Notes under the pieces: generated by a model
What the model was told of the DNA's origin: nothing
Databases searched by the model: none
What the model saw: the letters and a program-made list of their open reading frames with translations, nothing else
Program-made: the position numbers and the translations under genes
Shown here: piece after piece, positions 32,693 to 49,837 of the stretch
Layout of the letters: every line of letters begins with the position of its first letter
Numbering within the stretch: the first letter of the stretch is position 1
From: Synechococcus sp. BL107
GTDB taxonomy: Bacteria; Cyanobacteriota; Cyanobacteriia; PCC-6307; Cyanobiaceae
Direction: 5' to 3'
Assembly (NCBI RefSeq): GCF_000153805.1
Contig: NZ_DS022298.1
Span: 858,756-922,755 of the forward strand
DNA length: 64,000 bases

Positions 32693-32755
32693 GAGGTTGA
32701 TTTACAAAAACAAAACGGTTCCCAGAAACTCTCTGAGAACCGCTTGCGTTACTAG

Positions 32756-32803
32756 TAACGCCCCCTGTGTGATTCGAACACACGACCGACTGCTTAGAAG
32801 GCA
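32756..32803. repeat. attL: left copy of the 48-bp core
   Basis: Starts taacgccccctgtgtg and ends cttagaaggca. It is identical to 49673-49720 and contains the 3' half of tRNA-Arg from the anticodon to the acceptor stem. Beyond 32803 the tRNA sequence breaks off, so this copy is not a working tRNA. Confidence 0.9.
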
Positions 32804-32883: not shown

Positions 32884-33030
32884 TTTGAGCACAGCCGCTT
32901 AGGCAAGGTTGTAGACACTTGTGCCCCTTTTGAGCACAATATTGAGCACAAGCGAGGCCAGTTGCCCTTTAGGCAGTCGGTCTGTAGCGACGCCACATTT
33001 CGTGCTCAAAATGCCCGCTGGTGCTCAAAA
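32884..33030. promoter_or_regulatory. Cluster of TTTGAGCACA sites at the integrase gene
   Basis: TTTGAGCACA occurs at 32884-32893 and 32929-32938, and as ATTGAGCACA at 32941-32950. The reverse form GTGCTCAAA(A) occurs at 33002-33010 and 33021-33030. The same word occurs twice at the right island end (49604, 49616). The clustering at both element ends suggests arm-type integrase binding sites that may also autoregulate int. Confidence 0.65.
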
Positions 33031-34375
33031 ACGTGCAAAGCAGCCTGCATGGGTCAAGAAGCTGCGGTCGGACATCAAGGCCGACAACGGCGCCGGTTTC
33101 CTGGTGAAGCTGCCTTCAGGGCGCTCAATGGTGCAGTTGACGGTGATCTTTGACGACGGCACCCGTCAGCAGAACTATCTTCCGAAGCACCTCACTTGGA
33201 CTGCTGAAGATGCGTTGACAATCCGGGAGTGGACTAGGGATATACGGAAAATACTTGTCGAAGACATCAGCAAGACCTTGAAGCAGGCCATCGTTGAGCG
33301 TCAAGGATGGTCTGGTGATAAGCGTGAAGATGGTGAGGGCGCCTTTAACGCTGAAGGTTGGGACAACGCTTCTGAACGGTTCTTGGCGTCGCTTAGACCA
33401 ATCCTCCGCTCAAACTCACTGAGGCTGATTGAGCAGCGTGTCGCCAAGGCGCTAAATACACTAAAAACAGCGCCAAAACCCCGCAACTACGAAGCGTTTA
33501 TTCGTGCTTATGCCGAACAGCACTTTTATAGGAAGGATAAAAACAGCAATCTGGTCGTAGTTACATCAGCTGGCGGTTCAGGGCGAAAGCGCGGCATTGA
33601 AGATGTCACCCGTTTCTTGAGTTTCGCTGTTGAAGAATGTGGCGCTAGCAGTCGCTACCGTCCCAAGCTTTCGGCTGCTCTCAAGAACCAGCTGATTGGC
33701 ACCCGTGACGTTGATAGCAAGGTTGGCCGCAAGACCATTCCGCTGAAGGACGAGCAGTTTTCAGACTTCCTTGATTGGCTGCAGGTCAACGGCAAAAACC
33801 AGTTGAGGCTTGCTGTTGGGCTCGTTGGATACTTTGGCCTGCGCGAGTGTGAGCTGGCATTGGTGATGCCGACAGAAACGGCAAATGGCTTGCAGCTGAA
33901 AGTTGGTATGCAGGCAAAGGCCAACTCCAAAACACGCTCTGCGCCAGCTAAAGAGCCACGAACGGCGATGTATGCAAAATGCAAAGGCAGACCTGAAAAT
34001 GAGGCCATGGATATGCTGGCTCAGTATCACTCAGGCTTTGTAACTTTTCCGAAGCGGCTGCGGAAACAGATTGATCAAGTTGGTAAGAAAGGCTTCTTCC
34101 GTGATGTCGGTGATGCTTTTAGTGAGCAGGTCAAGTCAACACAATTCTGGAAGGATCTGATCAAGACTGAGCCGGAAATGAAGCCAAATTCTCTGCGCCA
34201 TAGCTTCGCCTGGCGGGTGCATCAATCAACGGAAATGATTGTTCCAACCAGGGCAGTCGCCGCCGCGATGGGACACACGCACCAGACTCATATGCGTTAT
34301 TACGCCGAATTTATTGACCCCGATCAGGTCCGCAAAGTATTCGAGCAGTTCAACCAATCAGTGCATTCAGCTTGA
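33011..34375 (+). CDS. Tyrosine recombinase (integrase) of the island
   Basis: Site-specific recombinase expected to join attL and attR at the tRNA-Arg 3' end. Visible catalytic features are the first Arg in LVGYFGLRECELALV (about residue 277), the second Arg/His block NSLRHSFAWRVH, the third His in AAMGHTHQ and the nucleophile Tyr in HMRYYAEF about 25 residues from the end. A basic N-terminal arm-binding region (AQKRAKQPAWVKKLRSD) precedes a SAM-like core-binding domain. The frame opens at 32921, but those codons are made of the repeated TTGAGCACA sites. The ATG at 33011 (454 residues) gives a normal start. Confidence 0.88.
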   Translation: MPAGAQKRAKQPAWVKKLRSDIKADNGAGFLVKLPSGRSMVQLTVIFDDGTRQQNYLPKHLTWTAEDALTIREWTRDIRKILVEDISKTLKQAIVERQGWSGDKREDGEGAFNAEGWDNASERFLASLRPILRSNSLRLIEQRVAKALNTLKTAPKPRNYEAFIRAYAEQHFYRKDKNSNLVVVTSAGGSGRKRGIEDVTRFLSFAVEECGASSRYRPKLSAALKNQLIGTRDVDSKVGRKTIPLKDEQFSDFLDWLQVNGKNQLRLAVGLVGYFGLRECELALVMPTETANGLQLKVGMQAKANSKTRSAPAKEPRTAMYAKCKGRPENEAMDMLAQYHSGFVTFPKRLRKQIDQVGKKGFFRDVGDAFSEQVKSTQFWKDLIKTEPEMKPNSLRHSFAWRVHQSTEMIVPTRAVAAAMGHTHQTHMRYYAEFIDPDQVRKVFEQFNQSVHSA

Positions 34376-34520
34376 TCATGCTTATAGTTAATTGGTCATC
34401 GTTGGTTTCGCGCCACCTGCTTTGAGCTGGATATTTGGCTAGGGCAACTTCAGGAGAGCAATCCTGAAATCCTTGGGCCTATCTCTCAAAGCTTCACCCA
34501 AAGGTGGAATCGTTCCTTCC

Positions 34521-34614: not shown

Positions 34615-34615
34615 T

Positions 34616-37171: not shown

Positions 37172-37178
37172 CGACGGT
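37151..37178. repeat. 28-bp exact repeat, copy at the ATPase 3' end
   Basis: Identical to 32536-32563 outside the island. It covers the last six codons, stop and seven bases downstream of the ATPase gene. Confidence 0.85.
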
Positions 37179-37213
37179 CTCAAGTTCGATTGCGTAAAAA
37201 CCTGACGGCATAA

Positions 37214-37272
37214 CTTCCAGTCGCAACAAGGTGGTTACGACTGGAAGCCGCCTTGAAGGCTGGCCTTTTATG
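37214..37272 (+). terminator. Tandem hairpins ending the replication operon
   Basis: A perfect 10-base-arm hairpin (cttccagtcg at 37214 and cgactggaag at 37238) is followed by a second one (gccgccttgaaggctggc) and a short T run. They separate the replication genes from barrel gene 1. Confidence 0.6.
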
Positions 37273-37323
37273 TAGCAAAAGCTACGCATCGCCGTCATCG
37301 TCAAGTCACACGTGATTCCTTTG

Positions 37324-38385
37324 ATGCTGCGTCGTCTTTCTGCAGGGTTGCTTGCCACTGCTGCTTTTGTTGCACCACTGGCTGCCACTGCACAAGAGGG
37401 TTCAGCAGAAGACCTTGGTGTGATGAGCATCAGCCTCGCTGATGTGGTCAAACCCACCATTGGTTTTCAAGGTGCACTCCAAGGTGCAGGCACACCAAAC
37501 CAAGCTGGTATTGGCGGGTTCCTTCCACTGTCTGTTGATGAGAACAGCGTTTGGTTCCTTGATGCCCTGGTCAACGCCCACTTCGGTGACCGCGATGGCT
37601 ACAGCAGCATCATCAATACCGATGTCGGTGGTGGTTACTCAACGTCTACGCGCTTGGGTTATCGCTGGCTGAACAGCGACCGCAGTTGGATGTTTGGTCT
37701 GAATGGTGGTTATGACAGCCGTTCATTGAAATCAGGTGATGCCGATACCAGCATTAACGTCACCCACAAGAAGACCGTCGGCTTCCAGCAGATCGCACTG
37801 AACGCAGAAGCAGTCTCAAGCAGCTGGACCTTGAACGGCTATGGACTGATCCCTGTGGGTGATGTCGAGCAGAAGCTCAATAGCGTTTATGAGGGCGGCG
37901 CGTTGAACACCTATGGCTTGGATGCTGGTTATTTCATCACTCCTGTTTTGAAAGCATCAGCAGGTTATTACTACCAACACCGCGATCAAGAAGATGTCGA
38001 TGGGTCTGGTGTGCGTGGACGCTTGGCTTATGAAATGACAAGTGGAGTCATAGCAGGGGTGAATATCTCCTACGACGAAGCATTTGATACCAGAGTTTCA
38101 GCAGACGTTAAAGTTCGCTTAGGTGGCGCATCTACAACAGCTCAGCGCAAAGAAGTTCAACAATTACCTGTAATCAATGCCTTAACATCAACACCAAGCA
38201 ACAGGGATGTAAGGGTGCACGATGGAGAGTTTGGCCTGGATGGCGGTGCATCTCGGTGCCAAATGACAAGGGGCGGGTCTACTAAGGTGGTGTGGTGCGA
38301 GGACCAATGGAAATACGATAAGAATGGGAATTGGGATGGGGGTTGCAGCGTTAATTCTTATTACTGTACTGGGAAGAGGAACTGA
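37324..38385 (+). CDS. Inverse-autotransporter-like beta-barrel with variable tail, paralogue 1
   Basis: 353 residues from the ATG at 37324. A signal peptide is cleaved near AATAQ, then a short linker (VVKPTIGFQGALQGAGTPNQ) leads to a beta-barrel of about 240 residues. The barrel has alternating strands and the IAT_beta-like signature STRLGYRWLNSDRSWMFGLNGGYDSR; the strand YDEAFDTRVSADVKVRLGG closes it. In intimin and invasin such barrels export the C-terminal passenger to the cell surface. Here the passenger is only about 55 residues after the junction NRDVRVHDG: Gly-rich with four Cys, ending YYCTGKRN. This plus-strand copy is separated from three minus-strand paralogues. Confidence 0.78.
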   Translation: MLRRLSAGLLATAAFVAPLAATAQEGSAEDLGVMSISLADVVKPTIGFQGALQGAGTPNQAGIGGFLPLSVDENSVWFLDALVNAHFGDRDGYSSIINTDVGGGYSTSTRLGYRWLNSDRSWMFGLNGGYDSRSLKSGDADTSINVTHKKTVGFQQIALNAEAVSSSWTLNGYGLIPVGDVEQKLNSVYEGGALNTYGLDAGYFITPVLKASAGYYYQHRDQEDVDGSGVRGRLAYEMTSGVIAGVNISYDEAFDTRVSADVKVRLGGASTTAQRKEVQQLPVINALTSTPSNRDVRVHDGEFGLDGGASRCQMTRGGSTKVVWCEDQWKYDKNGNWDGGCSVNSYYCTGKRN

Positions 38386-38488
38386 TAATCATCCGATACC
38401 CGGCACTAAATACGCAATAGACGCGAATCTCTATTGCGGTCTCAACAAGCCTTGCGTCAAAATGATTAAGCAGTAGCACTCTCCAGTC

Positions 38489-38860
38489 ATGGGAATGCGA
38501 CACAGGCGGGCTAGGCCGATGACTGGCCAGGAAGTCAGCTTGATTCTCGCGATGTTTATCGGTGGGCCAATGCTGTTGCTGCTGATCTTTGGGATCAGCT
38601 TCGAGCAATCTAAAATTGAAAGCAAGGCCAGGAGTGAACTAATAGCTAAGGGCGTTTACAAAGGCCCCTGGGGCTTTGAGTCGTGGCAAAAAGAGGCCAA
38701 CAGAACCTGCCGTAGCTGGCACTTAATTGAAGAGTCGGGGGGCGGTCCTGAACCTTGGTTCTGCGCTGATAAGTGCGATGTCCTCAAAAAGTGCGACATA
38801 ACCCGTGAGCAATCTCAACAGTGGGACAAAGTTATTTACGAACGTTGGCAAACCCAATAG
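38489..38860 (+). CDS. Single-pass membrane protein with Cys-rich outer part
   Basis: 123 residues. One hydrophobic helix (VSLILAMFIGGPMLLLLIFG, about residues 15-34) is followed by a soluble part with five Cys, including FCADKCDVLKKCD. No family recognised. It follows barrel gene 1 on the same strand, so co-expression is possible. Confidence 0.5.
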   Translation: MGMRHRRARPMTGQEVSLILAMFIGGPMLLLLIFGISFEQSKIESKARSELIAKGVYKGPWGFESWQKEANRTCRSWHLIEESGGGPEPWFCADKCDVLKKCDITREQSQQWDKVIYERWQTQ

Positions 38861-38888
38861 CAATCAGCAGCGGAAGCAGTAAGCCGAC

Positions 38889-39446
38889 TTACGACTGCCC
38901 AGGATCTTCCTGAGCGGCCTGCCGCATTTTTTCCCAGTGAAGGCGGTTGCGAAGCTTCTGATCCTCTCCTCTCTCTTCACGCTCACGCTGCAGCCTTGCT
39001 TCACGCTCGCGGGCGCGAATTTCACCTTGCTGTTTTCTCTGAAGAGACCACCAGTCATCGCCTTGATTGGGGTTCTGCGCAGGCTGAGGAGTATCCCAAA
39101 GCTTGGGATCAGTGGACGGAGGCTTCGGCTCAGGCAAAGGCTGAGACGGTCTTTTCCAGCCCGACAACTGTTGCGTAGGAGTACCTTCCGGCTTTATCCA
39201 TCCCAGCGCAAGCCGCGCTTGTTCGACCTGATAGTTATTTAAACGGAAGTATTCTGTCTGCGGGATACGCACATTTTGAAATAGCTTATGCAGCTCTTGC
39301 TCAAGATTTAAACTGCGATCTGTGACTAAAGACTGGACCAGAACACAGGGCTGAAGCTGTTTTAGACGCCTCTCAAGATTTGCGGTGTGTCCAATTTTAT
39401 ATAAATCTCCATTACGGATTAGGTATACATATCCAACATTCATCAT
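38889..39446 (-). CDS. GIY-YIG-superfamily (T5orf172/MUG113-type) nuclease-like protein
   Basis: 185 residues. The first 60 carry the GIY-YIG-related pattern GYVYLIRNGDLYKIGHTANLERRL followed by LEQELHKLFQNVRIPQTEYFRL, as in T5orf172/MUG113 domains, which occur in phages and mobile elements. The C-terminal 90 residues are low-complexity, Arg/Glu/Gln-rich and probably coiled coil. Possibly a homing or defence nuclease. It overlaps the upstream small membrane protein gene by 4 bases. Confidence 0.7.
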   Translation of the reverse strand: MMNVGYVYLIRNGDLYKIGHTANLERRLKQLQPCVLVQSLVTDRSLNLEQELHKLFQNVRIPQTEYFRLNNYQVEQARLALGWIKPEGTPTQQLSGWKRPSQPLPEPKPPSTDPKLWDTPQPAQNPNQGDDWWSLQRKQQGEIRAREREARLQREREERGEDQKLRNRLHWEKMRQAAQEDPGQS

Positions 39447-39742
39447 GGCCTCAACTTTCCAACGCCGTACCCCACCAGCAATCCAACAGCTGTACCAATG
39501 GCACCTGAGCTGAGCTGAGTCTTCTCGGTTTTGTTGAGGCTTTCACCTACAAGGAACGTCGCCCCAATGCCTAGAAGCAACAACGCCCCGACAACGACAG
39601 CATCAAGGGACTGATTTTTTGGCTTCTCGTCATTGTCACCGACCCAACCGCCTTGCTTTACAGGAGGCTTTCCAGGTGGTTGCTGCTTGGCGTCGAGTTC
39701 CCGCTCAATCCTGCTGAGTTCCTTTTCGGCGTCGCTTGTCAT
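39443..39742 (-). CDS. Small membrane protein, paralogue of the 23.5-kb gene
   Basis: 99 residues: acidic N-terminal helix (KELSRIERELDAK), Pro-rich linker, hydrophobic helix AVVVGALLLLGIGATFLVGE, and Gly-rich C-terminal segment GTAVGLLVGYGVGKLRP. Strongly similar along its length to the gene at 23528-23830 outside the island. Coupled by overlap to the GIY-YIG gene. Confidence 0.65.
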   Translation of the reverse strand: MTSDAEKELSRIERELDAKQQPPGKPPVKQGGWVGDNDEKPKNQSLDAVVVGALLLLGIGATFLVGESLNKTEKTQLSSGAIGTAVGLLVGYGVGKLRP

Positions 39743-39832
39743 GACCTGATTCTTGCAAGCACTCCTGCCGACGGCAAAGGTTGGTGGAGTCTTGTCTTAC
39801 CCAGTCTTGTGCGGTCAGCTTGCCAACCGCGC

Positions 39833-39997
39833 ATGATGTCCTTTGGCCGAGCACCTGCAGTGATCACCCTTCCGAGAGCACTGTTCAGCTGGAAGACCGC
39901 AGTAATCCTTACAGGCGTAAAGCTGGCGACACTTGCAGTGGTACTTGGCCTAGCCCGTGCAGGGCTTCTTCCAGTCTGGTTCCCGCATTGGGACTAA
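39833..39997 (+). CDS. 54-aa single-helix membrane peptide
   Basis: From ATG ATG at 39833: a basic N-terminal part (PRALFSWKT) and one hydrophobic helix (LATLAVVLGLARAGLLPVWF). Plausible but unsupported beyond composition. Confidence 0.35.
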   Translation: MMSFGRAPAVITLPRALFSWKTAVILTGVKLATLAVVLGLARAGLLPVWFPHWD

Positions 39998-40190
39998 TCC
40001 GCCTCAGGAACCCTGCTCAAAAGTGTTTTGGCGATTTTGGCGGCTTTGTTTATGGCGTTGACCAGCACTGCCGCACAGTCCTGGGCTGCAAGCTCCGCAG
40101 AGGTCAGCTGCAACAGGGACAACACCTCACCAAGCACTGCAAATACTAGTCCTCGGGGTCAAATATGGAAAACAGAGGCACAGTAGTTGC

Positions 40191-40940
40191 ATGAAACGAC
40201 TCTTGGTACTTGTTCCGCTTGCTTGCTTGAGCCTTTGCGCCTGCGAAAGCGAAACATGGCAAAAAGCAAACTATCTCCAAACAGCAGCATCAAACCTTTA
40301 TAAGAGTGGATTCGAGAAAGTAGTAATTGATTCTTCAACCAAGGTTTTGGAAATAGAAGATCATGCTGAGGCTTATTACATGAGGGGCGCTGCTAGAGAC
40401 GATCTAGGCCAATACTCATTAGCGAAACAAGATCTGCTTAAAGCTATAGACATGAATAATGGAATCGCAAAATACCATTATGTACTAGGCAATGCATACG
40501 TTGATACAAACGAGCAAGAGCTTGCAATTGCCTCATTCACAAAGGCAATTGAGTTATCTCCTAAGCATATAAATGCGATCGGAAATCGAGCCAATGCGCG
40601 GAGGAAATCCGGCGATTACCAGGGGGCGTTAGATGATTTCACGAAGGCAATTGCCATTGAACCCAATCACGCCAACAACATAAGAATGAGAGGTAATGTC
40701 AAATATGAAATTGGTGATTACAGCGGAGCACTTCAGGACTTCAATAAGGCAGTAGCCATTGATCCAAAAATCGCAGACAACACATCCTGGTCAACTGGCG
40801 TACATGCAGACATCTACTACGACAGAGCGTATGCATTTTCAAAGCTAGGAGAACCCGAAAGTGCATGTTCTGACTTCGAGAAAGCATCATCCCTTGGAAA
40901 CACTTCTGCTTTAGAAGTTTTTAACGATTTCTGCAAATAA
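40191..40940 (+). CDS. TPR-repeat lipoprotein
   Basis: 249 residues. An N-terminal signal with lipobox LCAC (about residues 16-19) predicts membrane anchoring. At least four tetratricopeptide repeats follow, e.g. AEAYYMRGAARDDLGQYSLA, HINAIGNRANARRKSGDYQG, GDYSGALQDFNKAVAIDP and DIYYDRAYAFSKLGEPESA. TPRs bind proteins; an outer-membrane assembly or scaffold role is possible given the neighbouring barrel genes, but that is speculation. The next gene starts immediately after the stop. Confidence 0.75.
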   Translation: MKRLLVLVPLACLSLCACESETWQKANYLQTAASNLYKSGFEKVVIDSSTKVLEIEDHAEAYYMRGAARDDLGQYSLAKQDLLKAIDMNNGIAKYHYVLGNAYVDTNEQELAIASFTKAIELSPKHINAIGNRANARRKSGDYQGALDDFTKAIAIEPNHANNIRMRGNVKYEIGDYSGALQDFNKAVAIDPKIADNTSWSTGVHADIYYDRAYAFSKLGEPESACSDFEKASSLGNTSALEVFNDFCK

Positions 40941-41183
40941 ATGCCAAAATACATGACCCGAGGAGAAACATTCCTCTTCTGGATTTGGTTTTTTTCAATA
41001 CCGCTGGCGTTCTGGAAAATTGGAAATATACTTATTTGCAATAGCTGCAAAGGGCCAGAAAATCTTTTCATATTGCTAATTACTTTAGGTGCATATTTTT
41101 TATATTTAAAATTTAGCTTTAAGCTCTTCTTTGAAACGATACCAGCATTGGTTCGTTTTTTTGAAAGCAAGCGAGGAAAATGA
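40941..41183 (+). CDS. Small membrane protein downstream of the TPR lipoprotein
   Basis: 80 residues, starting directly after the TPR stop codon. Two hydrophobic helices (LFWIWFFSIPLAFWKIG and LFILLITLGAYFLYLKF) with a Cys pair in the loop (CNSCKG). Unknown family; same operon. Confidence 0.5.
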   Translation: MPKYMTRGETFLFWIWFFSIPLAFWKIGNILICNSCKGPENLFILLITLGAYFLYLKFSFKLFFETIPALVRFFESKRGK

Positions 41184-41215
41184 TTATCTTGTTTCTACAA
41201 TTGCGGTAAGACCAG

Positions 41216-41428
41216 TTACGCCTCACGTCCAGGTCGGCTACCAGCACGCTCATCATCAGTGAGGTAATCCGCGATGAGGGGTGAGTTATCACCTCTCTCA
41301 ATGGCAACGATCTCACGCTCGATGTTTTCGATAAAGAGTTGATTCCCGTTTCGCTTTGCAACCTCCAGAACTTTGTTGAGTCTTTGAAGTTCAGCCTCTG
41401 CTTCGGTGTTTTTGTCCTCGGTAGTCAT
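41216..41428 (-). CDS. Small acidic hypothetical protein
   Basis: 70 residues, helical and charged (AEAELQRLNKVLEVAKRNG), ending SRPGREA. Unknown family. Confidence 0.45.
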   Translation of the reverse strand: MTTEDKNTEAEAELQRLNKVLEVAKRNGNQLFIENIEREIVAIERGDNSPLIADYLTDDERAGSRPGREA

Positions 41429-41645
41429 TGGGCTGTTTAGGTGGCTCCTGATGTTGTAGCTATTTGCCGAAACCTTTTAAATGACAGCGATTGGATCAGT
41501 TCATAGCCGCGACCGATGGACTCGGTGCCCGCTGGTTGAGTTGATGCCCAGTCCGCATATCCAATCGAGCTGGCGCATCGACATCACCCCACCTCCTGTT
41601 TGTAGGTGAGTAGTCCATATCAGAATTAGGTATGAACGATCCTGC

Positions 41646-41789
41646 TCAGAGACCTATTTGACTGAGGATTCCCTGGCCCGTCAGTAGTTCGGTGCCTAAT
41701 CCGATTACAAAGCCCAGCATTGCGAGGCGACCGTTCCAAGTCTCAGCAAAGTTGCTGAAGCCGAATCGGGAGTGGGTTGAATTAGTCAT
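41646..41789 (-). CDS. hli: High-light-inducible protein (HLIP/Scp, one-helix CAB-like)
   Basis: Read directly from the minus strand: 47 residues with the diagnostic chlorophyll-binding helix FAETWNGRLAMLGFVIGLGTE and the tail LLTGQGILSQIG. The ExxNxR-type motif (E16 to R21) is the chlorophyll ligand region. HLIPs protect photosystem assembly intermediates under high light or stress and are frequent cargo of cyanophages and islands in marine cyanobacteria. Located in the island between hypothetical genes. Confidence 0.9.
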   Translation of the reverse strand: MTNSTHSRFGFSNFAETWNGRLAMLGFVIGLGTELLTGQGILSQIGL

Positions 41790-41841
41790 GTCATTGGTTA
41801 AGTAGTGAAGCCCCACAAGGTGAGGCTTTGATTTGCTGCGA

Positions 41842-42012
41842 TCAGCCAGCTACAGCAGAAATGCTGTAGGGCGCTTCTGGAGAGCTAGTGGGCATTGGGT
41901 CGAGCTTCCCTTGAGCTAGGGCTGCTGCACGGATGTACATCTCGCTGGAGGTATTCCCAGCAGCTTCTAATGCTTTGGCAACGACATCCCAGTTGCGGAC
42001 TTCAGTAGACAT
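41842..42012 (-). CDS. 56-aa hypothetical peptide beside the modification genes
   Basis: From the ATG at 42012: helical N-terminal part (VRNWDVVAKALEAAGNTSSE) and a short Pro/Ser-rich tail ending APYSISAVAG. It lies 5' of the HprK-like gene and 52 bp upstream of the HLIP gene on the same strand. The helical leader plus short tail could suit a modified-peptide precursor, but it has no Cys and no known leader family is recognised. Confidence 0.45.
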   Translation of the reverse strand: MSTEVRNWDVVAKALEAAGNTSSEMYIRAAALAQGKLDPMPTSSPEAPYSISAVAG

Positions 42013-42195
42013 TTGAGATTGTTTGAACGATGCAACAACCATCGCCAGCCAACTGATTTGGTCGTGACGGTGAAAACCGCCAAGGAACCGAACACGCAAA
42101 AACAATTGGCTACTGATAAGTGGGGATTGGCATTCAGCAGACACTCTCCCTATTTGGCGGCATGCTCCACGACACCAGGATGAAAGAGCAATCAT

Positions 42196-42384
42196 TCACC
42201 GATCCCCCTCACAGAGGAACTCTCCACCACCTTTTCGGCGGAGAAACTCTTTTGCCATCAATCTCGATAACGCTTCCGATGGTGTCTTCTTTAGTTCCAC
42301 AGCCATTTGGGTAAGCGGGATGAGAGCAAACTCTTCTCCTTGATCAAGTGGCATTTCAGTGAGTTCTTGCAAGCTCAGACCCAA
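42196..42384 (-). CDS. 62-aa hypothetical protein
   Basis: A helical small protein starting MGLSLQELTEMPLDQGEEF with a basic C-terminal part (RLMAKEFLRRKGGGEFL). Divergent from the HprK-like gene. Unknown. Confidence 0.4.
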   Translation of the reverse strand: MGLSLQELTEMPLDQGEEFALIPLTQMAVELKKTPSEALSRLMAKEFLRRKGGGEFLCEGDR

Positions 42385-42417
42385 TCACGAGAGACTCCAT
42401 GAAACCTCACTAATTCG

Positions 42418-43428
42418 TTGATCAAACCTCATCGCTATTGCGCCCTGGGAGCAGAGATCAGCAGCGATTTGGTTTTGCCAGAACTGCAAACTTCCGATTC
42501 AGCCAGTGATGCGCTGGTGCAAATCCAACAGGGTGATCATCGGCAATGGCCCAGCCTTGAGCCAAGCCCTCACAGCACGCCAACACTGCAGTTAGCACCT
42601 CAAGATTGGCGTCTGGAACTGGAAGGCATTGGCTGGTTTCGTGCCACTGGTGGTGAGCGTTTGGAATGGCAGCGCTGGGATGACAGCGTCAGTGACCGCG
42701 ACATCCGCACTTTTGCTGTCACCAGTGGACTTGGAGCCTTAGCGATCCAGCGCGGTGCATTGGTTTTGCATGGAACAGCGCTGGAGCGCGATGGTGAGGC
42801 CATCCTCCTGTTGGGCCATCCAGCTGCAGGAAAGTCCACCCTGGCCTGGTGTTTAATCCAAGAAGGGTGGCGCTTATTGAGTAGTGAGCTGGTAGCCGTT
42901 GGTAGTGATGGGATAGTGCAGCCAGGGATGCGTCAACTCAAGCTTTGGTACGACGCTGTTGTGGCTTTGGAATTGAATTGGGCGCAGCTACCACCTGTAC
43001 GTAAGGGACTTAAGCGATATGCATTGCTAGCTGAAGAGTTAACTTGCATGCCACAGCCAACACCATTACGGCTGATCTATGCCTTAAATCGCGCCAAAGA
43101 AGAATCGGGCAAAGAGGAGGATGCCGATGAGGCAGAAGATGAAATGGAAAAAGTATCTATTAAGGCTTCACGCAATTTCTCACAAACAAATGCCTTAATG
43201 CGCCTGCGCAACCAAGCCTTTCACGCCAGGATGTATCGAGGCATGGATGCAGAAGCTCAACTGTTTATGCAGGCAGCTGCACTAGCTCGAATGGTGCCGT
43301 TGCATGCCTTGGTTGTTCCAGATGGAATCAAAGCAATGGCCGAAAGCCTGAAGAAGGTGGAACTGATGCAACCAGAATCGATGCAACAGCGCAGAGCAGC
43401 CACAGAAGAGGACGCAAGCAATGACTGA
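42418..43428 (+). CDS. HPr kinase-like protein (HprK-related, non-PTS)
   Basis: 336 residues. The N-terminal 110 residues are a beta-rich domain starting YCALGAEISSDLVLPEL, as in HprK-related proteins linked to PqqD systems. The P-loop GHPAAGKSTLAWCL sits near residue 132, preceded by RGALVLHGTAL, and LLSSELVAV holds the HprK-type acidic motif after the loop. Genuine HPr kinase phosphorylates Ser46 of HPr; related kinases in lasso-peptide and HPr-rel-A loci act on other substrates, including peptide tails. An acidic insertion (EEDADEAEDEMEK) lies near residue 240. The stop overlaps the sulfotransferase start by 8 bases. Confidence 0.75.
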   Translation: MIKPHRYCALGAEISSDLVLPELQTSDSASDALVQIQQGDHRQWPSLEPSPHSTPTLQLAPQDWRLELEGIGWFRATGGERLEWQRWDDSVSDRDIRTFAVTSGLGALAIQRGALVLHGTALERDGEAILLLGHPAAGKSTLAWCLIQEGWRLLSSELVAVGSDGIVQPGMRQLKLWYDAVVALELNWAQLPPVRKGLKRYALLAEELTCMPQPTPLRLIYALNRAKEESGKEEDADEAEDEMEKVSIKASRNFSQTNALMRLRNQAFHARMYRGMDAEAQLFMQAAALARMVPLHALVVPDGIKAMAESLKKVELMQPESMQQRRAATEEDASND

Positions 43429-44302
43429 CGATCACAGCTACTGGTATCTGGCTTCTTATCCAAAATCAGGCAACACCTGGTGCAGGGTTTTTATTACTGA
43501 ATTGATGAGGCTGTCAGGAGACAATCCTGGAGAACAACTAAATCTTAATCAAGATATTGAAACTGGAGCGATTGCCTCATCCAGGCTTTGGCTGGACGAT
43601 CAATTAGGGATCAATAGTTGCGATCTAAGTTTTAGTGAACTTGATCCATTACGCGGACGTGCTGGTGCCAGTGCGTGGCTATTCGCAGAAGGAGAGCGCT
43701 TTCACAAAGTGCATGATGCATTTAAATCTCCTGATTCCCGTGGGCGCCCAGTGGTGAGTACAACAGGCTGCTCTGGAGTGGTTTATATCCTGCGCCACCC
43801 GGAAGATGTGGCCGTGTCACTGAGTCACTTCTTCTCATGGCCGCTGGATCGATGCGTTGACTCCCTGCTTGATCCCAATGCAGCGCTGGTGCCAGGGGAA
43901 CGCTTTGGCGGCCACCAGGTGCGGCAATACATGGGCCGCTGGGATCAACATGTGCGCTCATGGGCTGATCAAACTCAGCTACCGGTGTTGATCATGCGTT
44001 ATGAAGACATGCTAGCAAAAGGATCAGAAACATTCACTGAATTAGCAACCTTTTTAGGGCTTACTACTGACTCAAAACTCATTAATCAGGCTTTAGAAAA
44101 TACATCCATCGATCGACTAAAGAAATTGGAGGAAGATGTTGATGGCTTTGCAGAAAAACCTGCCGGTTGTGAGCGGTTCTTTCGCTCAGGTCGTACCGGA
44201 GAAGGAGCGGAACAACTTTCAATTGAGCAGCGAAAGCGTCTAGCAAATGGATTGTCTGAAGCGATGAATCGCTTTGAATACGAAGGGCCAGAAGTTGACT
44301 GA
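43421..44302 (+). CDS. PAPS-dependent sulfotransferase
   Basis: 293 residues of the sulfotransferase domain family. The 5'-phosphosulfate loop YPKSGNTWCRVFI is near residue 13, and the 3'-phosphate motif YILRHPEDVAVSLSHFF near 125. A C-terminal FFRSGRTGEGAEQLS corresponds to the PAPS-binding 'RKGxxGxW' loop. It transfers sulfate from PAPS to a hydroxyl of a protein, sugar or small molecule. It is translationally coupled to the HprK-like gene and overlaps the acetyltransferase-like gene by 29 bases, so the three products likely work on the same substrate. Confidence 0.85.
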   Translation: MTDDHSYWYLASYPKSGNTWCRVFITELMRLSGDNPGEQLNLNQDIETGAIASSRLWLDDQLGINSCDLSFSELDPLRGRAGASAWLFAEGERFHKVHDAFKSPDSRGRPVVSTTGCSGVVYILRHPEDVAVSLSHFFSWPLDRCVDSLLDPNAALVPGERFGGHQVRQYMGRWDQHVRSWADQTQLPVLIMRYEDMLAKGSETFTELATFLGLTTDSKLINQALENTSIDRLKKLEEDVDGFAEKPAGCERFFRSGRTGEGAEQLSIEQRKRLANGLSEAMNRFEYEGPEVD

Positions 44303-44840
44303 TCCTCGAATTGAATTTGTATTTGGAGAGGTGAATGATCAGCTAAATCGTGAGTTGAGAGCTTTCTGGAGCCAGCATGGAAATGCATATCAAGAAGAAT
44401 TGAAGTCGTTTCAAGCAACACTAAGCAATAGCCAGAAGCGCATGGGTCTACTTAAGAAGCCTATATCAAGACAGCCAGCCGCAGTCTCACGTGATCGATT
44501 AGGCGCAATTAATGGCATTGTATTTGTTGTACTTAGAGAACTAGAAACTTCACTAGATCTCGGAAGCCATGCCTACTTTCAACGCATGTATATAGTCCCA
44601 GAATCCAGGCGGCCACGTTTGGCGAATCAACTATTTAGAGCATTTCTTCACGGGTTTGATCATGATGCAGAGAAACGTGATCATCGAGCAAAGGTCTTAC
44701 TAGCTGAAAACATTAATCCTGGCTTGCAGAAGACATTCATGCGGCGTTATTTTGCACGCCTTGGTTTCCAAATGCTTGGAGGGAATCAACTTGGCGGTGA
44801 AATTTGGGTAAGAAGGCTCAAAACACACTTTTCATTTTAA
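44274..44840 (+). CDS. GNAT-like acetyltransferase, third gene of the modification operon
   Basis: 188 residues from a TTG at 44274, overlapping the sulfotransferase 3' end. The central part GAINGIVFVVLRELETSLDL and the loop FQRMYIVPESRRPRLANQLFRAFL look like the beta4-loop-alpha3 acetyl-CoA region of GNAT enzymes. The C-terminal FMRRYFARLGFQMLGG matches the usual final helix and strand. The acceptor is unknown. It converges with the PqqD gene, overlapping by 4 bases. Confidence 0.6.
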   Translation: MNTKGQKLTDPRIEFVFGEVNDQLNRELRAFWSQHGNAYQEELKSFQATLSNSQKRMGLLKKPISRQPAAVSRDRLGAINGIVFVVLRELETSLDLGSHAYFQRMYIVPESRRPRLANQLFRAFLHGFDHDAEKRDHRAKVLLAENINPGLQKTFMRRYFARLGFQMLGGNQLGGEIWVRRLKTHFSF

Positions 44841-45136
44841 TCGTCAACCACGACAATCACATTCTTTTCCAAGGCAGCCTCCAGCCAAGCTTCAACAGAC
44901 AACTTGCATTCATCTGGGGCGACTTCATATTCGTCCTGTAAATGCTTGCAGATTTCAGGCAACGTTGGCTGAGCTTTCAATACCTTCCAAATGGCTGAGC
45001 CTGTCTCATTAAGAACAAGATAGTCGCAGGTTTTACTTTGAAATAATGCGACTTCGCCATCGAGTTCTGTGCAGACAGCGTGGTGGTGCTGTTTGAATCG
45101 TTTGGTGCTGCTTGTCATCAAGCGTTGAAAGCTCAT
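44837..45136 (-). CDS. PqqD-family protein (RRE-type peptide-binding domain)
   Basis: 99 residues with the PqqD/RRE winged-helix fold: strands VCTELDGEVALFQSKTCDYLVLNETGSA are followed by helices IWKVLKAQPTLPEICKHL and CKLSVEAWLEAALEKNVI. In RiPP pathways this domain binds precursor leaders and presents them to modifying enzymes; a PqqD homologue with an HprK-like kinase is the pairing seen in HPr-rel-A type loci. It is transcribed in the same direction as the three barrel genes just upstream and converges with the modification operon, which ties the two groups together. Confidence 0.75.
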   Translation of the reverse strand: MSFQRLMTSSTKRFKQHHHAVCTELDGEVALFQSKTCDYLVLNETGSAIWKVLKAQPTLPEICKHLQDEYEVAPDECKLSVEAWLEAALEKNVIVVVDD

Positions 45137-45273
45137 GATCTGTATCTAGCCAAATCATGGCATGGATCAATTTTGAGGGGATGCAACACAAAGAGCGGGC
45201 TGCAACAGCAGGACGGGCAGGGATATAGCGGCATCGACCGGTGAAACGCAGCTGCTGGCAGTTTATTGCGAAG

Positions 45274-46362
45274 TTAGCGTGTAGATGTTTTATTCCAATA
45301 AAAACCACCTTTTACAGTATTTTGATATGTTGGAAAGCAGCCATATCTATTCCCATTAGTTGATTTATACTTTTGTGCTCCAGAGTCCCCAAGGTCAGTT
45401 TTTCTGCCACAGGGTTGGTTTTTTATTTTGTTTCCATCATGAACTCTCACATCACGATGTTTGACTGATTCCGTGAGTGATTGAAGCACTGGTGTCTGCC
45501 ATTTTTTCTTCTCAACTTGTGTTGCACTACCGCTGCCAAAGCGATATTCAATGTTTCCTAAAACGCGGGTCTCAAATGCTTCGTCATAGGAAACCTTGAC
45601 GCCAAGCGTTAAACCATCCGTGATTTCATACGCCAGCTGAGCGAGCACACCAGAGCCATCATCTGCTGTGAGGTCATCGCCATGCTGGTAGTAATAACCA
45701 ATCGAGGCATCCCACTCAGGGGTGATTGCATAACCAACATCTAAGCCGTAGGTACTTAACGCACCACCGCGGTAACGGTCATTCAGGACCTGCTCAGTAT
45801 CTCCAATGGGGAAGAGCCCATAGGCATTGAAGTTCCAGGTCTCCGATACCGCTTCTAAACTCGCAGCAACCTGCTGAAAGAAGACATCCCGCTTACCTGT
45901 GACATCCACACCGGTATCAGCATTACCGGTATTCATCGGGCGGCTGTCATAACCAGCATTCACCCCAAACATCCAGGAGCGATCGTTATTCAGCCAGCGA
46001 TAACCAAGCCTTGATGAGGTGCTGATCGTTGTGCCAGCAACCTCTGTATTGACGATGCTGCTGTTGCCGCCGTAATCAGCAAAGTTGGCATTGAGCAGCA
46101 CATCAGCAAAGAAGACGCTGTTATCACCAACGAATAGAGGTAGGAACCCACCAATACCAGCTTGGTTTGGTGTACCTGCACCTTGCAGTGCACCCTGAAA
46201 CCCAATGGTTGGCTTGACCACATCCTTAAGACTGATGCTCATCACGCCACCGAGATCCTCTGCTGAGCTCTCTTGTGCAGTGGCAGGCAGCAGATCGAAG
46301 TTAGAGAGTGCCAGTGCAGCGATACCGCTCAGCGATAACGACAGGCGCAGGGAGCGCTGCAT
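45274..46362 (-). CDS. Inverse-autotransporter-like beta-barrel with variable tail, paralogue 2
   Basis: About 362 residues from the ATG at 46362 (MQRSLRLSLSLSG). Signal peptide ends near PATAQ; barrel signature SSRLGYRWLNNDRSWMFGVNAGYDSR; the closing strand YDEAFETRVLGNIEYRFG precedes the linker QSLTESVKHRDVRVHD. The tail after the junction is about 52 residues (two Cys, many Lys/Asn/Gly, ending NKTSTR) and unlike the other three. The barrel is close to paralogues 3 and 4. Last of three tandem minus-strand barrels and 137 bp upstream of the PqqD gene. Confidence 0.78.
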   Translation of the reverse strand: MQRSLRLSLSLSGIAALALSNFDLLPATAQESSAEDLGGVMSISLKDVVKPTIGFQGALQGAGTPNQAGIGGFLPLFVGDNSVFFADVLLNANFADYGGNSSIVNTEVAGTTISTSSRLGYRWLNNDRSWMFGVNAGYDSRPMNTGNADTGVDVTGKRDVFFQQVAASLEAVSETWNFNAYGLFPIGDTEQVLNDRYRGGALSTYGLDVGYAITPEWDASIGYYYQHGDDLTADDGSGVLAQLAYEITDGLTLGVKVSYDEAFETRVLGNIEYRFGSGSATQVEKKKWQTPVLQSLTESVKHRDVRVHDGNKIKNQPCGRKTDLGDSGAQKYKSTNGNRYGCFPTYQNTVKGGFYWNKTSTR

Positions 46363-46466
46363 TGGATACAACAACCAAGTATTCAGTACTTTTGTCTGAT
46401 TTTAGTGCTGATGCGAACTGCAGTAGTCAGTTTTAGCTTTGCTTCTTGGCGGTAACTAATAAAAAG

Positions 46467-46484
46467 CCCCGCCTTGCGACGGGG
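46467..46484 (-). terminator. Minus-strand terminator between barrels 3 and 2
   Basis: On the minus strand a C/G hairpin (ccccg and cgggg around tcgcaagg) is followed by ctttttatt. A similar hairpin lies upstream of each of the three minus-strand barrels (about 46467, 47740 and 49107), as part of a shared upstream block. Confidence 0.65.
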
Positions 46485-46547
46485 TGATATTTATTTAGTG
46501 CCAGATATTGGATTGCACTTAGGCATGATTAAGCAGTGATTAAAGAA

Positions 46548-46576
46548 ATAAAAAGCCCCTGCAATTGCAAGGGTTT
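46548..46576 (-). terminator. Weak terminator after the orphan tail
   Basis: On the minus strand cccttgcaattgcagggg is followed by ctttttattt, about 13 bases after the stop of the displaced tail. It is consistent with the original 3' end of this barrel gene. Confidence 0.4.
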
Positions 46577-46588
46577 TGGGAGTTATGG

Positions 46589-46645
46589 TCAGAGTTGAAG
46601 CACGCACCACGCACACGTGGTCCCACGCATCGATTTGTCGTGCAC
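46589..46645 (-). pseudogene. Displaced (orphan) C-terminal tail of barrel 3
   Basis: Downstream of the barrel 3 stop, the junction sequence gtgcacgac recurs twice more (minus strand; plus coordinates 46687-46695 and 46637-46645). From the second one an open frame reads VHDKSMRGTTCAWCVLQL and stop, a short Cys-containing tail like the others. It shares 13 bases with the active junction. It looks like a former tail pushed out of use when a new tail was acquired. Confidence 0.5.
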
Positions 46646-46655
46646 TCACGCTTAA

Positions 46656-47642
46656 TTAGCACACTAAAGAACACTTAGCTGTATGTGTCGTGCACTGACA
46701 TTCTTGTTCGTGTTTGTCGTGCACTCTCACATCTCTGTTCTTGGGTGATGCTGTTAACGCATTAATTGTTGGATTCTCCCACTTTTTCTTCTTAGCTGTT
46801 GCTGTACTTGGACCACCAAAGCGCACTTTAATATCAGCTGAAACTCTTGTATCAAATGCCTCGTCGTAGGAGATATTCACTCCTGCTGTGACGCCACTGG
46901 TCATTTCATAAGCCAAGCGTCCGAGTACGCCGGAACCATCTGCTTCTCCTAGGTCACCGCTTTGGTAGTAATAACCAACAGAAGCATTAACGGCTGGAGT
47001 GATGAAATAACCAATATCAAGCCCGTAGGTATCAAGCGAGCCGCCTTGATAAACGCTATTCAGCTGTTGCTCTGTATCACCAACAGGAACTAAGGCATAG
47101 GCATTGAAGTTCCAGCTATCAGAGACTGCTTCTGCATTAACTGCCACCTGCTGGAAGAAAGCACTCTTCTCTGTGCCGCTGACATTCACGCCTGTATCAG
47201 TTCCACCTGTATTCATCGGGCGGCTGTCATAGCCACCGTTAACGCCATACATCCAGCTGCGGTCGCTATTCAGCCAGCGATAACCAAGGCGCGTTGAGGT
47301 GCTGATCGTTGTGCCAGCAACTTCGGTATTGATGATGCTGCTGTAGCCGCCGTAATCAGCAAAGTTGGCATTGAGCAGCACATCAGCAAAGAACACGCTG
47401 TTCTCACCAACAGCAATTGGAAGGAATCCGCCAATACCGGCTTGATTCGGTGTTCCTGCTCCTTGCAATGCGCCTTGGAAACCCCAATTGAACTGAACAG
47501 CATCCTTGAGGTTGATCTCCATCACCCCCAGATCTTCTGCGCCACCTGCCTCTTGAGCAATGGCAGGCAGCAGAGCACTGTTAGAGAGTGCGACTGCGGC
47601 AGCTCCGCTCAGCGATAACGACAGGCGCAGAGAACGTTGCAT
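46656..47642 (-). CDS. Inverse-autotransporter-like beta-barrel with very short Cys-rich tail, paralogue 3
   Basis: About 328 residues from the ATG at 47642. Signal peptide cleaved near PAIAQ; barrel signature STRLGYRWLNSDRSWMYGVNGGYDSR; closing strand TRVSADIKVRFGG; linker NALTASPKNRDVRVHD. The tail is only 19 residues with five Cys (CQC, KC and the final VC). The barrel region resembles paralogue 1 (SADIKVRFGG) in the last strands and paralogues 2 and 4 in the first half, so it may be a mosaic. Confidence 0.78.
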   Translation of the reverse strand: MQRSLRLSLSLSGAAAVALSNSALLPAIAQEAGGAEDLGVMEINLKDAVQFNWGFQGALQGAGTPNQAGIGGFLPIAVGENSVFFADVLLNANFADYGGYSSIINTEVAGTTISTSTRLGYRWLNSDRSWMYGVNGGYDSRPMNTGGTDTGVNVSGTEKSAFFQQVAVNAEAVSDSWNFNAYALVPVGDTEQQLNSVYQGGSLDTYGLDIGYFITPAVNASVGYYYQSGDLGEADGSGVLGRLAYEMTSGVTAGVNISYDEAFDTRVSADIKVRFGGPSTATAKKKKWENPTINALTASPKNRDVRVHDKHEQECQCTTHTAKCSLVC

Positions 47643-47856
47643 TGATAAGGATGGATCTATTGAACGCACAATGCCTTGCTTTTACTGTTACTGCCCGCTG
47701 CAGTAGGCAGTAACAGCTTTGCTGCTATTCAGCAGGTAATAAAAAACCCCGCTCGTGGCGTAGCTAAATATTGATTAGTGCCAGGTATTGAACCGCCAAT
47801 GAGCTGCTTTTATGAGAGCTTTGATTAGATATTAGATCCCAGATGGGCCAGTACTT

Positions 47857-47925
47857 AAATGTCTACCCAGCCGTTAGCAACGATGATGGTATGTGTTGAT
47901 GCAAATGTCTACCCAGCCGTTAGCA
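47857..47925. repeat. Two 23-bp direct repeats at the end of barrel 4
   Basis: aaatgtctacccag...gttagca occurs at 47857-47879 and 47903-47925 (46-base pitch). The right copy encodes ANGWVDI near the C-terminus of the barrel 4 tail; the left copy begins at the stop codon and continues outside the gene. A local duplication created the present stop. Confidence 0.9.
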
Positions 47926-49007
47926 GTTGCATCAGGCGCGCCAGGGTCACAATGTATCGTGCTCGCCAAGGTTACTCCTCGGTCGTGGAAACGGGACAAA
48001 AAGCTCGATGGATTCCTGGAAGCGATTTGTTTACCATTGCGCAGACTAAACAATTTGCACTTCGCATCTGGATCTGCTGCATCATGAACGCGGATATTCC
48101 TGTTTTTAACGCTTTCAGATAACGCTTGAATGGTTGGCTTTTGCCATGCTTTTTTCTTGGTTTCTGCAGCTGAACTATTGCTACCAAAACGATACTCAAT
48201 GTTGCCTGAAACTCTAGTTTCAAAGGCTTCGTCATAGGAAACATTGATCCCAGCAGTTAAACCATCAGCGATCTGATAATCCAGCTCTACCTGCACGCCC
48301 GAACCATCTGCTTCTCCTAGATCACCGCTTTGGTAGTAGTAACCAATTGAGGCATTGAGATCTGGAGTGATTGCATAACCAACATCAAGACCATAGGTAT
48401 CAAGCGCCCCGCCGAAATAACGCGCATTGAGGCGCTGCTCTACATCACCAACAGGAACTAAGGCATAGGCATTGAAGTTCCAGGTATCAGAGACTGCTTC
48501 TAGACCTGCAGCGATCTGCTGAAAGAAAGCACTTTCCTTGTCGTAGAGCGTGACACCTGTTTCAGCATTACCTGTATTCATCGGGCGGGTGTCATAGCCG
48601 CCGTTCACGCCATACATCCAGGATCGGTCGCTATTCAGCCAGCGATAACCAAGCCTTGATGAGGTGCTGATCGTTGTGCCAGCAACCTCTGTATTGACGA
48701 TGCTGCTGTTGCCGCCGTAATCAGCAAAGTTGGCATTGAGCAGCACATCAGCAAAGAAGACACTGTTCTCACTTACAGCGATTGGCAGGAACCCGCCAAT
48801 GCCTGCTTGGTTTGGTGTTCCTGCTCCCTGCAGTGCGCCTTGAAAACCAATGGTGGGTTTGACGACATCAGCGAGGCTGATGCTCATCACCCCAAGATCA
48901 TCGGCGCTACCTACCTCTTGAGCAGTGGCAGGCAGCAGAGCGCCGTTAGAGAGTGCCAGTGCAGCAACACCGCTCAGCGATAACGACAGGCGGATGGAAC
49001 GCTGCAT
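47874..49007 (-). CDS. Inverse-autotransporter-like beta-barrel with variable tail, paralogue 4
   Basis: About 377 residues from the ATG at 49007 (MQRSIRLSLSLSG). Signal peptide cleaved near PATAQ; barrel signature SSRLGYRWLNSDRSWMYGVNGGYDTR; closing strand TRVSGNIEYRFGS; linker QALSESVKNRNIRVHD. It has the longest tail in the set, 67 residues with four Cys, ending THHRC-like (TYHHRC). First of the three minus-strand barrels. Inverse autotransporters hold a single passenger outside the barrel, so the tail is predicted to be surface-exposed. Confidence 0.78.
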   Translation of the reverse strand: MQRSIRLSLSLSGVAALALSNGALLPATAQEVGSADDLGVMSISLADVVKPTIGFQGALQGAGTPNQAGIGGFLPIAVSENSVFFADVLLNANFADYGGNSSIVNTEVAGTTISTSSRLGYRWLNSDRSWMYGVNGGYDTRPMNTGNAETGVTLYDKESAFFQQIAAGLEAVSDTWNFNAYALVPVGDVEQRLNARYFGGALDTYGLDVGYAITPDLNASIGYYYQSGDLGEADGSGVQVELDYQIADGLTAGINVSYDEAFETRVSGNIEYRFGSNSSAAETKKKAWQKPTIQALSESVKNRNIRVHDAADPDAKCKLFSLRNGKQIASRNPSSFLSRFHDRGVTLASTIHCDPGAPDATANGWVDICINTYHHRC

Positions 49008-49167
49008 TGAACACAACATTTAGAAGACAGCACTTTCATCTGCTTTTGCTGCTGATGCGGGCTGCAATAGGCAGTTTCAAATTTGCTTCTGAGCGATAAC
49101 TAATAAAAAAACCCGCCTTGCGACGGTACTGATGGATATTTAATCCTTTCCTTGAGGAGATAGTTCG

Positions 49168-49533
49168 CTATCTCCGCCCTCGTGGGCCTCGTTGCCCAGC
49201 AGTTGAGTTGATACCCAACCCCGTCATCCAGTCGAGCTGCTTAATGCATGCAACAACAGCTCCAGGATTCTTTTGTTGCTTCGCTTGACCAGCTGCGGAC
49301 ATCAGCGTCTGTATTGACCAAGCCAGCAGTTCAAGTCGATCAATCCCTGTTTCATCGACATCGTCCTTGATCTGACTCCAGGCACGCTTCATTAGCTCGT
49401 AACCCCGAGCCCTGCTGATCCCCCACTCCTTTCTGGCAAAAGCAAGACACTCGCTATTTGGAGTGCCGGCCAGGATCATTCCCTGGAGGGCATCGATGCG
49501 ATCAGAGGTCTCTGCTGCTGTTGCTCGTGCCAT
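49168..49533 (-). CDS. Small terminase-like / HTH protein at the island's right end
   Basis: 121 residues from the ATG at 49533. An N-terminal DNA-binding part (DRIDALQGMILAGTPNSECL followed by WGISRARGYELMKRAWSQI) resembles the helix-turn-helix of phage small terminase subunits. The C-terminal half is helical, suitable for oligomerisation. Satellites often carry a small terminase to redirect packaging by a helper phage. The assignment rests on shape only; a plain transcription factor is possible. Confidence 0.5.
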   Translation of the reverse strand: MARATAAETSDRIDALQGMILAGTPNSECLAFARKEWGISRARGYELMKRAWSQIKDDVDETGIDRLELLAWSIQTLMSAAGQAKQQKNPGAVVACIKQLDWMTGLGINSTAGQRGPRGRR

Positions 49534-49603
49534 GACCTCTCTCGTCGGAGAAAACCGCAAACCTGTTGGCGTGGCGGGCTTCTGAGACCCAACTCTAGGA
49601 CTA

Positions 49604-49625
49604 TTTGAGCACAGATTTGAGCACA
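49604..49625. promoter_or_regulatory. Paired TTTGAGCACA sites next to attR
   Basis: TTTGAGCACA at 49604-49613 and 49616-49625, 12-base pitch, 48 bases inside the att core. The same word with the same pitch lies near int (32929 and 32941). Proposed integrase arm sites. Confidence 0.65.
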
Positions 49626-49672
49626 AAAAATAAAAACGGATCTCAGCTGCTGCTAAGAACCCTTGCTGTAAC

Positions 49673-49720
49673 TAACGCCCCCTGTGTGATTCGAACACAC
49701 GACCGACTGCTTAGAAGGCA
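49673..49720. repeat. attR: right copy of the 48-bp core
   Basis: Identical to 32756-32803. It forms the 3' part (anticodon loop to acceptor) of the intact tRNA-Arg gene, whose 5' part continues to 49749 on the chromosome side. Confidence 0.9.
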
Positions 49721-49749
49721 GTTGCTCTATCCAGCTGAGCTAAGGGAGC
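49676..49749 (-). tRNA. tRNA-Arg (anticodon UCU)
   Basis: The minus-strand sequence begins GCTCCCTTAGCTCAGCTGGA and folds into a complete cloverleaf. The acceptor stem is GCTCCCT with AGGGGGC (one G-U pair), the anticodon loop is CTTCTAA with anticodon TCT, and the T loop is GTTCGAATC. The CCA end is not encoded. Its 3' half is the integration target of the island. Confidence 0.95.
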
Positions 49750-49837
49750 ATCCCGTTATTTTGGCAGTCCGGGCTGGAAGGCATGGGTGGATATCGGCCA
49801 TTGGCTTCTAAACTTGGTCACTGTGTAACAGCATTGG

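Follow-up and report, generated by a model that had tools for sequence, protein, structure and literature searches.

A tailoring gene set of apparent lasso-peptide origin and its likely targets, the variable tails of outer-membrane barrels, in Synechococcus sp. BL107

A 64,000-nt stretch of Synechococcus sp. BL107 (contig NZ_DS022298.1; called the window, to which all coordinates of its features refer) carries genes for a kinase homologue, a sulfotransferase, a GNAT-fold protein and a PqqD-type protein at 42418-45136, next to an array of barrel genes. What do these four proteins act on, and with which chemistry? Tailoring guided by a recognition element of ribosomally synthesized and post-translationally modified peptides (RiPP recognition element, RRE) has been described for free peptides. 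At this locus the sequences point to a different substrate. The C-terminal tails of the barrels are likely the target of the module. It is also reasonably probable, as a whole, that a lasso-derived tailoring set was re-aimed at these tails and brings about RRE-guided sulfation of the displayed peptides.

The gene module and the leader of its neighbouring barrels

The HprK-related kinase homologue (42418..43428, +) keeps the P-loop GHPAAGKST and has Ser-Glu in place of the catalytic Asp-Asp. It overlaps by 8 bp the sulfotransferase (43421..44302, +), which is of the 3'-phosphoadenosine 5'-phosphosulfate (PAPS) type and contains PKSGNTW, KVHDAF, RHPEDVAVS and GRTGEG. The sulfotransferase gene in turn overlaps by 29 bp the GNAT-fold gene (44274..44840, +), whose product has no Pfam match and a predicted model resembling GNAT structures. 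These three genes converge with that of a discrete PqqD-type RRE of 99 aa (44837..45136, −), which itself follows three minus-strand barrel genes, the layout described in the original prediction. The sulfotransferase (Sulfotransfer_1 PF00685, 59.6 bits, cut-off 22) and the PqqD protein (PF05402, 53.5 bits, cut-off 23.4) are clear family members; the nearest NCBIfam entry to the latter, lasso_PqqD_Bac, scored below its cut-off. The kinase gave partial family matches only (HprK_rel_A 52.8 bits, cut-off 200; Pfam Hpr_kinase_C 21.3, cut-off 33.3), and a sequence search of solved structures returned only weak HprK matches for it.

The order kinase-sulfotransferase-GNAT converging on PqqD is kept in six named Synechococcus or Prochlorococcus contigs and in about twenty retrieved loci, where a barrel gene usually adjoins the module. 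Because the order recurs in about 18 loci besides this one, mostly with a neighbouring barrel, the module is not a chance grouping, and the tie between the four genes and the barrels that had been proposed for this locus held up in the neighbourhood survey. PqqD orthologs (E < 1e-30) were found in 18/400 Cyanobiaceae genomes and the barrel family in 75/400. A kinase search across Cyanobiaceae recovered the same genome set as well as a second, sister kinase group. In most related loci (L100, L105, L106, L110, L111, L112 and others) PqqD is separated from the barrel by a gene for a RAYT-like protein (REP-associated tyrosine transposase); this gene is absent from the window.

Barrels of module genomes share a layout after the last strand: KKxWxxPx[I/L]xxL, then R[D/N][V/I]RVHD, then a hypervariable tail of 9-90 residues. 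The three barrels beside PqqD, b1 (45274..46374, −), b2 (46656..47669, −; likely ATG start at 47642) and b3 (47874..49019, −), belong to this W-class. Past the last strand they read KKKWQTPVLQSL, KKKWENPTINAL and KKAWQKPTIQAL, and their tails after RVHD are mutually unrelated. Their leaders, all on the minus strand, are WQTPVLQSL in b1 (45475..45501), WENPTINAL in b2 (46755..46781) and WQKPTIQAL in b3 (48120..48146). The W-class leader fits the motif [Y/W]xxPx[L/V/I/F/A] bound by discrete lasso RREs, whose W is nearly invariant in paeninodin-like leaders (PMC13381572). A fourth barrel, b0 (37312..38385, +), has the non-W counterpart QQLPVINAL (38158-38184, +). The leader-region peptide KKKWENPTINALTASPKNRDVRVHD of the W-class is the predicted PqqD ligand; b0 has RKEVQQLPVINALTSTPSNRDVRVHD in this region and is probably not a module substrate.

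The distribution of the leader was examined in 108 barrels with a readable tail, from a survey that scored at most five barrels per genome. The motif W..P.[LIVM] was present in 45/59 tails from genomes with a PqqD ortholog and in 2/49 tails elsewhere (Fisher p 1.6e-15), or, counted per genome, in 17/17 versus 2/27. All 26 readable-tail barrels inside module loci are W-class. Barrels distant from the module in the same genomes carry the leader as well, and a leader-profile search of 20 genomes gave strong matches confined to barrel open reading frames or barrel fragments. The barrels are related to one another, and on their tree 11 changes of the W label occur, at least 7 on supported branches. 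In phylogenetically independent pairs, W agreed with PqqD in 5.3 and opposed it in 0.4 (averages; median p 0.0625). W-class barrels combine a constant leader with a variable core, as expected of a RiPP. The original prediction had named the barrel tails as the target, and the WxxPx[I/L] leader on module-genome barrels, nearly always lacking elsewhere, supports that choice. Its test of whether barrels and module occur independently gave a divided result: the barrel family as a whole outnumbers the module, but the WxxP class tracks it.

These observations also bear on the idea that the four genes act on some other substrate (a free peptide, a polysaccharide or a metabolite) and that the barrels are merely fellow cargo of an island. 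Module and barrels do both lie on mobile islands, at a tRNA-Arg element here and adjacent to tmRNA in several relatives, and barrels are also found without the module. However, the leader covaries with the module, it occurs on barrels far from it, and a search of the module loci for a short, precursor-like free WxxP peptide turned up none. We regard this explanation as improbable. Nif11-type RiPP precursor genes lie beside module barrels or barrel fragments in L103 (10209-10451), L111 (14356-14553) and L228. They were rejected as substrates, as they are without WxxP and are not constant in the loci.

Sister lasso clusters and the chemistry of the module

The sister kinases belong to ordinary lasso clusters with Asn_synthase, Transglut_core3, an ABC transporter, NTP_transf_5 and PqqD, mostly together with a sulfotransferase. 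The short free peptides of these clusters (e.g. ...QEKLEWITPKISPMAAGNTAGSKAPFGDEITDP...LGS) have the same WxxP leader and a Ser at the end. The same enzyme types thus stand beside free peptides with the same leader, which adds to the support for the barrel tails as target. In a 23-genome search, Transglut_core3 was found in 5/5 sister-cluster genomes and in 1/18 module genomes, the sole exception being G129, which holds a separate lasso locus. The lasso-type leader protease is thereby missing from 17/18 module genomes, and the lasso cyclase (the Asn_synthase macrolactam synthetase), present in the sister clusters, was not found among the module genes. Because the barrel module is without lasso protease and cyclase, the tail probably stays attached to the barrel. 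The simplest reading of these comparisons is that a barrel took over the lasso leader and the enzymes for tailoring, while the steps of cleavage and cyclisation disappeared. None of the sister lasso clusters examined showed the GNAT-fold protein. At L230, L231, L232, L240 and L241, cyanobacterial lasso clusters were seen in which an HprK-like kinase occurs together with a sulfotransferase and the short WxxP precursors end in Ser; going by the literature searched, this kinase/sulfotransferase pairing would be a new tailoring combination.

Which modification would such a module make? Lasso kinases require a His-Lys-Asp-Asp catalytic motif (PMC9266682). In the kinase alignment, the Asp-pair site is SSE in 11/11 barrel-linked kinases, with loss of Asp-Asp, and ADD or TDD in 11/11 sister kinases. 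The catalytic His is also missing in 3/11 barrel-linked kinases. Phosphorylation, which the original prediction had proposed, is doubtful because the barrel-linked kinases lost Asp-Asp and three of them also His, and it was set aside as the main chemistry. The homologue is probably not an ordinary kinase. One could still suppose that the tails are targeted in the same RRE-guided way by an active kinase, with (poly)phosphorylation of tail Ser/Thr and sulfation as a second step. The P-loop and most of the fold are retained, the change of the second Asp to Glu is conservative, and HprK-like lasso kinases phosphorylate core serines (PMC9266682, PMC13381572). Against this stand the invariable Ser-Glu, set beside the Asp-Asp kept in every sister kinase, and the rarity of the lasso kinase site, a C-terminal Ser, which occurs in just 1/44 W-tails. 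An active kinase is accordingly rated unlikely.

The motifs of the sulfotransferase that bind the 5' and 3' phosphates of PAPS, and its catalytic His, are invariant in every copy of both groups. It is the best conserved of the module enzymes, near relatives being 88-95% identical, and the closest proteins of solved structure include the glycopeptide sulfotransferases TEG12, Teg14 and StaL. With these motifs intact, sulfation, which the original prediction had listed as an option, is the better-supported chemistry. Tail composition was compared between the classes. W-tails have a mean net charge of +1.95 versus −0.83 in non-W tails (p 1.4e-6), less Asp/Glu (6.5% versus 11.9%) and more Thr (9.3% versus 5.5%), and 44/44 contain Ser or Thr. 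The differences in charge, Thr and Asp/Glu persist without the largest subfamily. Basic, acid-poor, Thr-rich tails would be expected if negative groups were later added to hydroxyls, but common descent could also produce this composition. Taken together, sulfation is somewhat favoured as the main chemistry of the module.

The GNAT-fold protein was modelled with AlphaFold2 at a predicted local distance difference test score (pLDDT) of 81, and its best PDB matches are GNATs (E 2.6e-5); it is a possible acyl donor. Sequence searches of solved structures with the GNAT-fold and barrel proteins gave nothing useful.

Could the set work without covalent modification? PqqD might bind the tails and the set serve chiefly in export, as a chaperone or a quality check that keeps the C terminus unfolded. 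The apparently inactive kinase homologue and the degenerate look of the coenzyme A (CoA) loop of the GNAT-fold protein would fit such a role, and non-W barrels manage without the module. Strict conservation of all PAPS and catalytic motifs in the best conserved enzyme of the set argues against it, and we give this explanation little credence.

Barrel tails and the element that carries them

The barrels had been labelled inverse autotransporters in the original prediction, and their predicted fold agrees. The AlphaFold2 model (pLDDT 71; tail of low confidence) has as its top PDB matches the beta-domains of intimin 4e1s, invasin 4e1t and 5g26 (E about 1e-10, template-modelling score by target 0.70-0.71), though Pfam IAT_beta scores only 12.4-15 bits on these barrels, under its cut-off of 22.3. 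By analogy, the tail would be exported as a C-terminal passenger at the surface, for which the even number of cysteines in the tails is indirect support.

Of 106 distinct tails, 16 are cysteine-free, 87 show an even count and 3 an odd one, against a chance expectation of about 49 odd counts (binomial p 2e-22). Because cysteine counts are even in 87/90 of the cysteine-containing tails, these RVHD-adjacent segments very probably form disulfides, which fits a location in the periplasm or at the cell surface. In the window, the tail of b1 (45277..45435, −) has 53 aa with 2 Cys, that of b2 (46659..46715, −) 19 aa with 4 Cys, and that of b3 (47877..48080, −) 68 aa with 4 Cys; the tail of b0 lies at 38224-38382 (+).

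Paralogs within a genome are often 91-100% identical in DNA across the 150 bp leading to the RVHD codons and 13-40% identical in the tail. Past the stop they become alike again; in G129 the identity there reaches 99-100% across about 270 bp. One tail, GEWLAPNFFACWD, was found on two different barrel backbones (G324 and G145). A 15-bp element, TTCAATACCTGGCAC or close variants, follows 65/108 barrel stops within 400 bp, mostly at 60-155 bp, and 0/108 in a reversed-sequence control. It was present in 4/8 genomes searched and absent from the other four, which are those without barrels. Copies in the window are CAATATCTGGCACTA downstream of b2 (46496..46510, −), CAATACCTGGCACTA downstream of b3 (47776..47790, −) and CGATACCCGGCACTA downstream of b0 (38394..38408, +). 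The tails thus look like exchangeable cassettes, flanked by a fixed 5' edge and by a 3' block. The element (YCRATACCTGGCAC), noted in the window and at L247-L251, also follows some Nif11 precursor genes, a connection with the barrels that bears on how such repertoires diversify. G129 (L105, L106, L244, L245) has three module copies, duplicated barrel arrays and roughly twenty leader-bearing barrels; in two of its arrays one barrel recurs unchanged, tail included.

The barrels and the module probably ride on a tRNA-integrated element of about 17 kb (32733-49750). A 71-bp copy, 90% identical, of the 3' part of tRNA-Arg and its flank (32733..32803, +) is a probable attachment (att) half-site. It sits just before a gene for a phage-integrase-like tyrosine recombinase (32921..34375, +; PF00589 E 8.7e-5, below cut-off). 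The probable integration target is tRNA-Arg (TCT) at 49675..49750 (−), with the matching repeat copy at 49653-49720. G+C is mostly 45-51% inside the element and 54-57% outside to the right. Six related loci adjoin tmRNA (transfer-messenger RNA). A phage origin of module or barrels is unsupported, as PqqD and barrel alignments found no relatives in viral contigs; a plasmid search gave distant PqqD matches only. The mobile element, like the WxxP leader, the even cysteine count and the lasso origin, goes beyond the content of the original prediction. The element further contains a T5orf172/MUG113 (GIY-YIG-like) gene at 38889-39446. An Rfam scan of the window detected tRNA and PhotoRC-I only, the latter an RNA element (RF01716; 12676-12719) that is ordinary in marine picocyanobacteria.

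Proposed mechanism and comparison with known systems

We propose that PqqD would bind KKxWxxPx[I/L]xxL past the last strand while the barrel protein is still cytoplasmic. It would bring the sulfotransferase to the hypervariable segment that follows RVHD, for sulfation of Thr/Ser hydroxyls there. The kinase homologue may be an ATP-binding partner whose kinase activity is probably lost, and the GNAT-fold protein may donate an acyl group to the tail. Export and insertion of the barrel would follow, with the tail threaded out like the passenger of intimin, and disulfides would close it into a surface-displayed, chemically modified variable peptide. We infer PqqD-leader binding, sulfation, the modified residues, surface exposure and timing alike from the patterns above. 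If true, an RRE recognition motif has become part of a large membrane protein, and cleavage and cyclisation have been dropped, so that the modification is displayed on the surface instead of secreted.

Several points weigh against this proposal. The leader survey was capped per genome, and the tree offers few independent contrasts. G293 and G324 have a W-class barrel with no PqqD or sulfotransferase match. In G099, where the module lies at a contig end, no W leader was found. The differences in tail composition may stem from shared ancestry. The CoA-loop stretch of the GNAT-fold protein, RRPRLA, looks degenerate against (Q/R)xxGx(G/A) when judged by eye. Finally, we know of no precedent for cytoplasmic modification of an unfolded outer-membrane protein.

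A wider form of the proposal is more tentative, at somewhat less than even chances: a surface-display RiPP system without precedent, in which a barrel-captured lasso module acts in trans on a genome-wide repertoire that can reach about twenty barrels, their tails, closed by disulfides, move as cassettes between two fixed DNA edges, and tRNA/tmRNA islands spread the whole as a natural library of sulfated cyclic peptides. The most likely biological role of the modified tails, for which support is weak, would be variable recognition at the surface or escape from phage or grazers. The locus offers an entry to the questions of why picocyanobacteria keep hypervariable peptide repertoires, how these are diversified and whether phage or grazers drive them.

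How does this arrangement compare with known systems? The literature searched yielded no paper on inverse autotransporters in connection with Synechococcus and none on surface barrels modified in the manner of RiPPs. Inverse autotransporters (type Ve; intimin, invasin) are alike in predicted barrel fold with a C-terminal segment after the last strand. They carry immunoglobulin-like domains, whereas the barrels here end in a hypervariable tail of 3-90 residues with an even number of cysteines, and the W-class inserts an RRE leader between barrel and tail.

Paeninodin-type lasso clusters (PadeA/B1/K, PsmN) and linear polyphosphorylated peptides share with the module a discrete PqqD-type RRE and an HprK-like kinase, and they too have a WxxP (paeninodin) or YxxP leader with a variable core (PMC13381572). 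The Cyanobiaceae sister clusters contain the same kinase/sulfotransferase pair as the barrel module. The module differs in its substrate, an outer-membrane barrel of roughly 300 residues with the leader placed after the barrel; in that no leader protease, cyclase, NTP_transf_5 or ABC transporter was seen with it; and in a kinase without Asp-Asp and an extra GNAT-fold protein. HPr-rel-A systems (TIGR04352, TIGR04353) likewise join an HprK-related kinase to a PqqD-family protein, but both proteins fall under the curated cut-offs (kinase 52.8 versus 200 bits, PqqD 28.7 versus 35 bits). TEG12, Teg14 and StaL are of the same sulfotransferase fold family and the best sequence matches among solved structures; they are distant, however, and modify finished glycopeptide antibiotics with no RRE involved.

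Prochlorosins and Nif11-class hypervariable RiPPs of picocyanobacteria resemble the barrel tails in their constant leader, hypervariable core and many copies per genome, and occur in the same organisms (PMC10783134); some Nif11 genes share the 3' element of the barrels. Prochlorosins are free lanthipeptides made by ProcM, whereas the variable part here is fused to a membrane barrel and its cysteines look disulfide-bonded.

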